A DNA stretch of 27,876 nucleotides from positions 1 through 27,876 of IMG/VR virus record IMGVR_UViG_3300021182_000055. One strand, 5' to 3'. How positions within the stretch are numbered: the stretch's first letter is position 1; the number at the start of each line of letters is the position of its first letter. A program made the translations under genes and the position numbers. Positions 4,774 to 8,045 of the stretch are shown in pieces. A model generated the notes under the pieces. The model worked only from the letters and a program-made list of their open reading frames with translations. It was not told the origin of the DNA and made no database searches. The DNA is from a virus.

Positions 4774-4802
4774 TTGACACGATACTATTCAAGTGATACA
4801 CT
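4774..4802 (+). promoter_or_regulatory. First rightward early promoter, TTGACA-N17-TACACT
   Basis: -35 TTGACA (4774-4779), a 17-nt spacer and -10 TACACT (4797-4802). The predicted +1 is near 4809, giving a leader of about 230 nt before the first ORF at 5043. It should drive the early rightward genes. The palindrome AAGTGATACACTT overlaps its -10 box. Confidence 0.7.
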
Positions 4803-5183: not shown

Positions 5184-5236
5184 TAAAACCAGTCTAATTG
5201 ACTGGCAAGTGGTACAGAATAAATTGTGAATTTAAA

Positions 5237-5337
5237 TAGATATATAAAGAAGTTGGCAATTGACAACAAAAGGGGTTAACAATTAGTACAGTTAACAGCA
5301 ATCAACTACTTTAAGTTGAAACCCTCTTATATATCTA
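5237..5337 (+). ncRNA. Candidate structured RNA, multi-branched, 11-bp closing stem
   Basis: A perfect 11-bp helix pairs 5237-5247 with 5327-5337. Inside are GTTG/CAAC (5252-5255, 5264-5267), GGGTT/AACCC (5273-5277, 5320-5324) and TCAACT/AGTTGA (5302-5307, 5314-5319). An alternative TTAAC/GTTAA stem (5276-5280, 5291-5295) competes with the second. Nested helices over 100 nt with no ORF suggest a functional RNA or a processing site between early genes. Not a tRNA. Confidence 0.35.
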
Positions 5338-5339
5338 AC

Positions 5340-5395
5340 ATACTGGAAACGACATCAACGTGTAATTTTATTACTTAGCATGGTTCGTCCAGTAT
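5340..5395 (+). ncRNA. Second stem element directly after the multi-branched RNA
   Basis: ATACTGGA (5340-5347) pairs perfectly with TCCAGTAT (5388-5395) over 8 bp, enclosing about 40 nt with no strong internal stem. CCAGT/ACTGG hairpins also occur near 4880-4900 and 5190-5206, so this motif recurs in the region. From here to 5541 no gene is seen; a GCCGT/ATGGC stem and a GTTTGGTGC motif near 5473 are the only other features. Confidence 0.3.
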
Positions 5396-5541
5396 CTATA
5401 TCTAGGCATCATATAATACAGCCGTCAACATCGTAAAACTTAGGTTATGGCAAATAATTGTCGAAGATAATCGGTGTTTGGTGCTTAGTTATAGACTACT
5501 CAAATTGTAATATTAAATTAATCATGAGGAGTATAAATATT

Positions 5542-5745: not shown

Positions 5746-5993
5746 AACAATCAACAATACAATGGCACTTAGCAAGAGACAATCAAGCTCAATTAGCTAA
5801 GTTTTGCGAACAGAACAGAGTACGTTCATCAACTGAACTAAATACATACAATGATGGCGAACACGATTATTTTCAACAGACATCAGTATTTAACAATGGT
5901 GGTTTTATAACTGCCGAACTACTACATGGAGATACCAGGAGTTATAGCGTAAATGACCACTATCAAGTAGTAGACTATGTTTTAGGGAATTAA
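5742..5993 (+). CDS. Hypothetical early protein (83 aa)
   Basis: An 83-residue soluble protein rich in Gln, Asn and aromatic residues, with a helical N-terminus (residues 5-30) and a strand-rich C-terminus. An AAAGGAG ribosome site and an ATGA overlap with the upstream gene show translational coupling, so the two probably form a pair. Its stop codon is directly followed by the first copy of the repeated intergenic element (5993-6068). Function unknown. Confidence 0.65.
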   Translation: MKQSTIQWHLARDNQAQLAKFCEQNRVRSSTELNTYNDGEHDYFQQTSVFNNGGFITAELLHGDTRSYSVNDHYQVVDYVLGN

Positions 5994-6068
5994 AGTGTTG
6001 GTGCAACTATAACGTGCGATGGTTAGTTGCCAAGTGGGAGCATATCAATCCCCAGCCAACAACTCTAA
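5993..6068 (+). repeat. Repeated intergenic element, copy 1
   Basis: Shared ends with copy 2 (6702-6785): AAGTGTTGGTGCA at the left and AGCCAACAACTCTAA at the right, around an unrelated middle. TGTTGG (5996-6001) and CCAACA (6056-6061) can form the closing stem. This copy also folds GCAACTA/TAGTTGC (6003-6009, 6024-6030) and GGGA/TCCC (6036-6039, 6049-6052), giving a three-way junction. A hairpin CTTATC...CCCG/CGGG...GATAAG (6087-6122) follows. Confidence 0.5.
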
Positions 6069-6184
6069 AATAATAATAAGTTGGTGCTTATCAACCCCGT
6101 TCAGTCGGGAAAGGTGGATAAGAATAAGTGCAAACCCAGAACTGCTACCAATAGTTAGCTAAATAACAATAACGAAAGGAATAT

Positions 6185-6394
6185 ATGAAAGCAATATTAA
6201 TACTCGGATTTTTAACCCTAAGCTGTTTTAGCTTTACAGGCTCACAACCTGTTGGCATAACTAGCTTGCAACCAAGTGGTATGATAGTTAAAAACACTAC
6301 CACACAAAATGCAGGAACGCTCACAGGTAATTTAAATGTAGCAGGCATAACACAGCTACAAAATGGTGGAACTATCAATGAGAATACCAATTAG
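6185..6394 (+). CDS. Small exported or membrane-anchored protein (69 aa)
   Basis: A 69-residue protein with a hydrophobic N-terminus (MKAILILGFLTLSCFSFTG) typical of a signal peptide. A Cys at residue 14 might serve as a lipobox, but the -3 position is Thr, so that is doubtful. The mature part (residues 20-69) is Gly/Thr/Asn-rich, like short beta-solenoid pieces of phage fibre proteins. An AAAGGA site precedes the ATG. It lies among early genes, so a role in the infected cell envelope such as superinfection exclusion is possible but unproven. Confidence 0.6.
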   Translation: MKAILILGFLTLSCFSFTGSQPVGITSLQPSGMIVKNTTTQNAGTLTGNLNVAGITQLQNGGTINENTN

Positions 6395-6451
6395 ATCATT
6401 AGGCTTTAGCAAATTCGTTTATGTCAGAACTATAAAAAATGGAGGTATAAA

Positions 6452-6700
6452 ATGAGTAAATACGATCTAACTTACAGCGAAATGTCAACAGATAAAACTC
6501 GAAAACACTATAACGCTTTAAAGTTTAAAAATGAACCACATATCGAGATCAATATACCAGAGCGCTATAATCGTTTTATATTGCTAGCAATTATACTACT
6601 GTTCACGCTACTTGTAGCAGGTGGCACAGCTAGCCCAAATAGTCAGAAGTTACCTATACCAAATTATAATAGACTACCTAAAAGCGTATTAATTAAATAA
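6452..6700 (+). CDS. Small single-pass membrane protein (82 aa)
   Basis: An 82-residue protein with a charged N-terminal half, one clear transmembrane segment (about residues 41-60, RFILLAIILLFTLLVAGG) and a short Pro-rich tail. A strong GGAGG site precedes the ATG. It is the second predicted envelope protein in a row in the early region. Its stop is immediately followed by the second copy of the intergenic element. Function unknown; host-envelope modification or exclusion of other phages would fit its place (inference). Confidence 0.65.
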   Translation: MSKYDLTYSEMSTDKTRKHYNALKFKNEPHIEINIPERYNRFILLAIILLFTLLVAGGTASPNSQKLPIPNYNRLPKSVLIK

Positions 6701-6701
6701 T

Positions 6702-6785
6702 AAGTGTTGGTGCAGGTGTAAATGAGACTTATGCAGTGAGAGCCTGAATAAATACAAGCAAGCAACTAACAGCCAACAACTCTAA
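6702..6785 (+). repeat. Repeated intergenic element, copy 2
   Basis: The same 13-base left end and 15-base right end as copy 1 (5993-6068), with a different 56-base middle. TGTTGG (6705-6710) pairs with CCAACA (6773-6778). A strong 10-bp hairpin (6788-6797 with 6807-6816, one G-U pair) follows just before the ribosome site of the helicase gene. Both copies begin at the stop codon of the preceding small gene. Confidence 0.5.
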
Positions 6786-6829
6786 GTTATCGAGCGAATT
6801 ACGAGGTCGCTTGATAGGAAAGGAAAATT

Positions 6830-8020
6830 ATGTTAAAGCTCTATTCTTGGCAACAAACTTATTTAGATGATCTTCGAGCTAATGTCATTATGACAGCTAC
6901 GCTTGGTAGTGGTAAAACAGCTTTGAGCCTAAACCATGCTAAACGCTACTCTCCAAACATACCTATAATAGTTGTAGCACCAGCTAGCAAAATCAGAACT
7001 AAAGACTGGCAACGTGAAGCAACTGACTGGGAAGCACCACTGCATAGTACTTATTCTTATGAGATGTTCGCTAAACAGCAAGAATTACCACCAGAATACG
7101 TGCTTATAGTAGACGAGTGTACTTATATTAAGTCTGCAACTGCAAAACGCTCCAAAGCCGTTATACGTGCTGTACAGAGCCAAAATTGCAAACAGTTTAT
7201 ATTACTATCAGGAACTCCACTGCCTAAAGGCTGGCAAGATATACAGACATACGGTATTCTATTCAATCTTTGGGCTAACAAAACACAGTTTTTTAGAGAG
7301 TATGTACTAATTGATCGCTCTAGGGGCTGGCCTCGGATTATAGGCTATCGGGGCGAGGAGCAATTGAAACGCTACTGGCAAGCTATCTCTAGGGGCTTAG
7401 ATCATATTTTAGACTTGCCACCTAAGCATAATATCAATGTAAATATAGAACTCAGTCCAGGACAGTTGAGAGCATATAAAGATGTTAAGCAAAACCGCAT
7501 CACACCAGACGGAGACCTGCTAGATATGCCCAGCAAACTACATGCCTACTTGCGGCAGTCTTTAAGCTACTACCGACAAGATGCCTTGCGCAATATTCTC
7601 GATGACACGCTCGACCATGTAATTGTGTTCTATAACTACAACTTAGAACGTGACGCTATTTTAGAAGTATTGAAAGATTATCCAGAACGTACTATCTGGG
7701 AGCAGTCGGGGCATAGAAGCAATTTACCGGAGCGAGATATATGGTACACAATGCCACCGAGCGTTACAATTGCTCAATATCAAAGCGCAAGCACCGGCAT
7801 TGAGCTTACATACGCCCATATAACGGCTTATTACTCTCCGACCTACTCTTATGCAGATTATGCTCAAAGTCTTGGCAGAACGTACCGTACGGGGCAGAAA
7901 TACACTACTTTGTACTATTTCTTTAAGTGCAATTACACCATAGACGGTGCTGTTTATAAGTGTCTTGACAACCGTCAAGATTTCCAAGATCATTTATGGG
8001 AAGAGGAAAATGCCTATTGA
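6830..8020 (+). CDS. SNF2/DEAD-like superfamily 2 helicase
   Basis: A 396-residue compact helicase. Motifs in order: LGSGKT (Walker A, residues 25-30), VDECT (motif II, 94-98, with C in place of the usual A), LLSGTP (III, about 125-130), QSASTGIEL (V) and SLGRTYRTGQ (VI, near residue 360). The WQQTY at residues 7-11 is a Q-motif-like start. This is the SNF2-type phage helicase commonly found near DUF669 and Sak4-like genes, thought to act at forks or in recombination. The AGGA ribosome site lies 5 nt before the ATG, directly after a 10-bp hairpin. The promoter of the next operon overlaps its stop codon. Confidence 0.85.
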   Translation: MLKLYSWQQTYLDDLRANVIMTATLGSGKTALSLNHAKRYSPNIPIIVVAPASKIRTKDWQREATDWEAPLHSTYSYEMFAKQQELPPEYVLIVDECTYIKSATAKRSKAVIRAVQSQNCKQFILLSGTPLPKGWQDIQTYGILFNLWANKTQFFREYVLIDRSRGWPRIIGYRGEEQLKRYWQAISRGLDHILDLPPKHNINVNIELSPGQLRAYKDVKQNRITPDGDLLDMPSKLHAYLRQSLSYYRQDALRNILDDTLDHVIVFYNYNLERDAILEVLKDYPERTIWEQSGHRSNLPERDIWYTMPPSVTIAQYQSASTGIELTYAHITAYYSPTYSYADYAQSLGRTYRTGQKYTTLYYFFKCNYTIDGAVYKCLDNRQDFQDHLWEEENAY

Positions 8021-8045
8021 CAATAACAATTCAGTGTGATACACT
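8017..8045 (+). promoter_or_regulatory. Second rightward promoter, TTGACA-N17-TACACT
   Basis: -35 TTGACA (8017-8022) overlaps the helicase stop codon. The spacer is 17 nt and the -10 is TACACT (8040-8045), identical in boxes and spacing to the promoter at 4774. It should drive the replication/recombination operon from 8090 onward. Confidence 0.7.

Follow-up and report, generated by a model that had tools for sequence, protein, structure and literature searches.

The early operon and the repeated element

The window analysed here (the whole stretch of DNA, 27,876 bases) is a complete virus record with genes for a terminase, a probable portal, an HNH nuclease, an SNF2-type helicase and a C5 DNA methylase. 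In front of the helicase gene, an element with paired ends is present twice among small early genes. The features of this region are as follows:

4774..4802, + strand: early operon promoter, TTGACA-17-TACACT with TG before it; similar in G001, G012, L182 and L005
5742..5993, + strand: gene of 83 amino acids with no family; its stop codon touches copy 1
5993..6005, + strand: 5' arm of copy 1, AAGTGTTGGTGCA; helix strand TGTTGGT at 5996-6002
6006..6052, + strand: variable middle of copy 1, 47 nt
6053..6068, + strand: 3' arm of copy 1, CAGCCAACAACTCTAA; helix strand GCCAACA at 6055-6061
6087..6122, + strand: hairpin after copy 1, not clearly significant (equalled by 13 of 200 shuffles)
6452..6700, + strand: gene of 82 amino acids, probable membrane protein; its stop codon precedes copy 2
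6702..6714, + strand: 5' arm of copy 2, AAGTGTTGGTGCA; helix strand TGTTGGT at 6705-6711
6715..6769, + strand: variable middle of copy 2, 55 nt, folding no better than shuffles
6770..6785, + strand: 3' arm of copy 2, CAGCCAACAACTCTAA; helix strand GCCAACA at 6772-6778
6787..6817, + strand: hairpin of 11 bp that follows copy 2, ahead of the ribosome site AGGAAAGG (6816-6823); z -3.5, 0 of 200 shuffles as good
6830..8020, + strand: SNF2-type helicase gene, 3' of copy 2; the G001 homologue also stands behind a copy

The next matching promoter was found at 8017-8045, behind the helicase gene. Neither another strong promoter nor a + strand terminator was seen between the promoter at 4774 and the copies, which lie about 1.2 and 1.9 kb past it. 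Thus, the promoters at 4774 and 8017 place both copies within one polycistronic early message. The TTGACA-17-TACACT promoter is similar across the phage group (window 4774 and 8017; L005, L179 and L182 leaders), and L005 and G012 have in common a 5' leader stretch behind it that carries AACAAAGCTATnTAGCAGTTACC. A separate region of the window also appears structured (z -4.4 against shuffles), namely the 339 nt that separate two small early genes at 5187-5525; no relative of it was found.

Both the 13-nt 5' arm and the 3' arm occur twice without a mismatch, as the original prediction had it. The 15-nt 3' end described there does recur, and with its leading C it is really 16 nt long, so that the middles measure 47 and 55 nt rather than 48 and 56 nt. 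These middles are unrelated and can be aligned over the first few bases only, and the whole element comes to approximately 76-84 nt per copy. The two arms are the only exact repeats of at least 13 nt in 4.5-8 kb of the window; dinucleotide shuffles gave, on average, 0.33 repeated 13-mers and 0.03 repeated 16-mers. The sequence TTGGTGC is found four times on one strand within 1.3 kb, as had been noted. However, the occurrences at 5478 and 6081 are not full copies of the element because neither has an AGCCAA partner.

Copy 1 begins at the last base of the stop codon of the 83-aa gene, where both copies had been said to begin, and copy 2 starts slightly later, two bases past the stop codon (6698-6700) of the 82-aa gene. 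The helix starts 2-4 nt past the stop codon of a small gene. No similarity was found between the 83-aa and 82-aa genes, and a duplication of the neighbouring genes was rejected for this reason.

Predicted closing helix and folding

In both copies, the predicted pairing of TGTTGG with CCAACA extends to TGTTGGT/GCCAACA, a closing helix (P1) of 7 bp including one U.G pair. AGT/ACT pairs across a bulged A would lengthen it to 9 bp, so that the repeated stretches match the strands of this predicted helix plus a few bases. When the element was folded alone, most P1 pairs had probabilities of 0.9-1.0; when 150-nt flanks were included, the P1 probability fell and competing pairings won. Copy 1 as a whole folds only mildly better than shuffles. 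Its middle may form an inner stem GCAACTA/TAGTTGC, the first strand of which starts within the 5' arm, together with GGGA/TCCC, and the two 7-bp helices could stack. For copy 2, the fold does not surpass that of shuffles (z +1.4); its interior has no stable fold and it contains no long duplex.

A hairpin had been proposed behind each copy. The one behind copy 2 is well separated from shuffles, whereas the one behind copy 1 was matched too often by shuffled sequences to be retained with confidence. The ribosome site AGGAAAGG lies almost entirely outside the predicted hairpin at 6787-6817, and no sequestration of it was seen. A riboswitch was considered and rejected, since an expression platform is absent: there is no intrinsic terminator on the + strand and no hidden ribosome site. 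A riboswitch-type mechanism is thus unlikely.

A third copy in a related phage

Relatives were gathered with the helicase, the terminase and the P-loop ATPase as queries. The close relatives were G001, G002, G003, G012, L180/L181, L182 and late-gene fragments, with helicases 80-83 % identical to that of the window in G001, G002 and G003 and about 50 % identical in G012, L180/L181 and L182. G001 (helicase 81 % identical) is the closest relative with the region intact. The syntenic gap in front of its helicase gene contains a third copy at L002:4872-4938, with GCTGGTGC...AACAGCCAGC at L002:4874-4935. This copy starts 4 nt past the stop codon of a small gene that is unrelated to those of the window, keeps the core TGGTGC...CAGCC and encloses an unrelated middle in a loop of 50 nt (52 and 60 nt in the window). 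A strong hairpin and then an AGAAAGG ribosome site come after it. When the complete G001 record was scanned with the pattern, no other intergenic copy appeared. Each of the three copies (two in the window, one in G001) lies on the coding strand, with a stop codon before it and a ribosome site behind it, and the genes preceding them differ.

The helix is changed on both sides, from GTTGG/CCAAC in the window to GCTGG/CCAGC in G001. One U-A pair is replaced by C-G, four other pairs and the inner U.G are kept, and the next pair outward is lost. A conserved RNA closing helix was among the readings originally offered, and this copy, at the same gene boundary and with a compensatory change, speaks in its favour. 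When the G001 gap was shuffled, an equally good match was held by 11 of 20,000 shuffles, position and loop length not being counted.

These shuffles bear on the view that the pair of copies is a functionless recent duplication of an intergenic piece, in which the middle was replaced and the likeness to G001 is due to chance. Arms that are base-identical within one genome would be expected from such an event, and the likeness to G001 consists of about 11 core bases and the pairing. However, the shuffles make the G001 match unlikely, position and loop length agree as well, and the adjoining genes are not duplicated. We consider a duplication of this kind improbable.

The window copies could also be read as encoding a translated leader peptide, as both open with GTG TTG GTG CAR NTR TAA, a frame of five codons that stays open through the differences between the copies in their first 20 nt. 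Copy 2, however, has no preceding ribosome site; G001 contains no short frame of this kind, and a stop stands immediately before the aligned frame there. We give this reading hardly any weight.

More serious is the possibility of a DNA operator made of inverted half-site pairs for a phage DNA-binding protein, with single half-sites at 5478 and 6081. The four TTGGTGC sequences on one strand in 1.3 kb agree with it. Covarying inverted arms would also fit a protein of shifted specificity, which weakens the argument for RNA. On the other hand, the full copies all lie just past stop codons, inside the operon and away from the promoter, and the arms are unequal (TGGT vs TGGC) in three of three copies, a feature that RNA wobble allows and a palindromic operator disfavours. 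An operator is therefore rather doubtful.

Searches in other relatives and databases

The helicase is present in G002, G012 and L182 with the region intact, and no clear copy was found in front of it, which counts against the RNA reading; in G002 there is no comparable gap before the helicase. The upstream gap of G003 is unreadable because the record begins inside the helicase gene. The prediction was to be abandoned if relatives lacked the element and the pairing was not conserved; both points were examined and the finding survived, through one relative.

The exact ends at this spacing were found nowhere else in 2.9 million viral contigs. With the looser pattern TTGGTGC...AGCCAAC, 115 of the matches listed from the viral contigs (at least 121) overlap open frames, and the six non-frame matches among those listed were read as chance because they have no matching gene context. 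A descriptor (GGTGC...AGCC with paired flanks) applied to approximately 80 related loci recovered the two window copies and two unconvincing matches; its open-frame filter removed the G001 copy. A nucleotide search of known phages gave no match. Rfam at the curated threshold had no match in the window or in the relatives searched, and a permissive Rfam search of 4.4-8.1 kb returned chance-level matches only. No cloverleaf of a tRNA or tRNA-like gene was detected by ARAGORN.

These searches also concern the suggestion that the copies mark a cassette boundary, or a recombination site or mobile element with constant ends. The constant ends, the free middles and the location at the ends of small genes are in line with it, and the set of small genes from the promoter to the helicase does differ between the window and G001. 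However, the exact ends at this spacing are absent from other viral contigs, the DNA sequence of the ends changes from one phage to the other, and integron attC core sites are not matched. As indirect evidence from gene content, the small-gene region varies just as much where relatives have no copy. This part of the prediction was not supported, and we regard such a boundary as highly improbable.

Other structured RNAs and repeats in the group

A separate structured RNA was observed in early leader or intergenic regions at L002:3277-3346 (G001), L182:1767-1867 and L179:5436-5613 (G012). Stacked outer and inner helices, unrelated in sequence and matching in shape, are arranged around GAGAGCGTA ... 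ATAACGTACC with a variable insert. Stretches covering this RNA have z values of -4.5 to -6.9, and in G001 and L182 the folds computed for it are near-identical around the motifs. It is absent from the window and had no Rfam match in G001 or G012. When the two motifs were searched for at 11-41 nt apart in all viral contigs, G001 and L182 were recovered along with chance coding-like sites only, and 393 host-class genomes gave no instance of the pair. This structured RNA is better supported than the paired-end element of the window.

Two further structured regions were seen. The first is a 200-nt intergenic RNA of G012 (L169, minus strand, 1236-1040; z -5.0), which is closed by the helix CAAGTAGCC/GGCTACTTG and may form a pseudoknot through GCCACAACTTAG / CTGAGTTGTGGC. 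The second is a 276-nt leader domain (L182:1879-2154), whose long closing helix has an inner end GGU...AGCC resembling the window element. This core was not counted as a copy, since group-wide it is not enriched over other cores. In addition, L004:9905-10180 contains 15-nt tandem repeats of the TGGTGCTAATCTGCG type in a coding region, which probably encodes a pentapeptide-repeat protein.

Host and proposed role

The nearest terminase among bacterial genome contigs (43 % identity) is on a contig binned as Candidatus Saccharibacteria, and a helicase relative of 41 % identity is in another genome of the Saccharibacteria class. From these relatives, the host is probably a member of the Saccharibacteria, on circumstantial grounds.

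The paired-end element is probably a small RNA element of the early message. The compensatory change, the position past stop codons, the orientation on the message strand and the lack of a promoter speak for an RNA element rather than for a DNA site or recombination boundary. As a tentative reading, which we prefer without holding it firmly, it would be an intercistronic element acting on the stability, the processing or the translation boundaries of early messages. We infer both that it acts as RNA and that its role is one of stability, processing or insulation. The arms would pair into a closing helix of 6-9 bp with the core GGUGC...AGCC and a free loop of 50-60 nt, and this helix, placed just past the stop codon of a small gene, would be followed by a further hairpin and then the next ribosome site. 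Such a boundary module might protect segments of the early message, mark them for cutting or insulate them, and a factor that reads the paired arms would probably take part.

Several observations count against this RNA element. Copy 2 does not fold better than shuffles, P1 is outcompeted with long flanks, and across the two phages there is one compensatory pair, with the next outward pair lost in G001. Judged from these sequences, the RNA case is thin, with one independent relative and one compensatory pair. The arms are identical within the window, more so than the pairing requires, and only the pairing and a short core are kept between the phages, which suggests either recent spread inside the genome or a phage-specific partner. 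It seems quite unlikely that the element belongs to a wider set of lineage-specific structured RNAs, placed between early genes of Saccharibacteria phages and working on host polymerase, ribosome or nucleases with no dedicated phage protein. If the element is an RNA element, it would be a small and so far uncatalogued means of post-transcriptional control, used by phages of tiny, barely studied epibiotic bacteria. Other, stronger structured RNAs were also seen in this phage group, in early leaders and in the spaces between early genes.

Comparison with known systems

Like REP/BIME extragenic palindromes, the element is repeated, intercistronic and has palindromic ends (compare PMC3116915). It is unlike them in that it occurs just twice in 28 kb and that its free middles are long.

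Integron attC sites carry RYYYAAC...GTTRRRY core sites at their two ends. The element shares with them short inverted ends, a variable middle and a place just past the stop codon of a small gene. However, its ends (GTTGGTG/GCCAAC in the window, GCTGGTG/GCCAGC in G001) lack RYYYAAC...GTTRRRY on both strands, the G001 copy having no GTT/AAC ends, and attC was rejected.

RNase III processing sites between the early genes of T7-like phages are long hairpins. Such sites resemble the element in lying between early genes, on the message strand and more than once per operon, whereas P1 has 6-9 bp and copy 2 is without a long duplex.

The put antiterminator binds the beta' zinc domain of RNA polymerase, and terminators are then read through. 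The early operons of HK022 carry two put RNAs (putL and putR) of about 70 nt, with two stem-loops (PMC9378689). The element might accordingly be bound, as nascent RNA, by a regulator or by RNA polymerase itself, for example as a factor-independent antiterminator of the HK022 put kind, which we think unlikely, if less so than the other alternatives. Unlike in HK022, there is one promoter (4774), and both copies are in one operon far from it rather than near two promoters. No intrinsic terminator that would call for suppression was seen on this strand, copy 2 has no long stable internal stem-loop in its first domain, and the host is far from enterobacteria. Like putL and putR, the copies number two per phage, are of a similar size (approximately 76-84 nt against 70 nt), belong to early transcripts and have ends similar in sequence. 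In addition, a domain with a closing helix is followed by a hairpin, and the arms are identical within a genome and different between phages, as would be expected for a lineage-specific partner. This likeness to put is one of layout and size.
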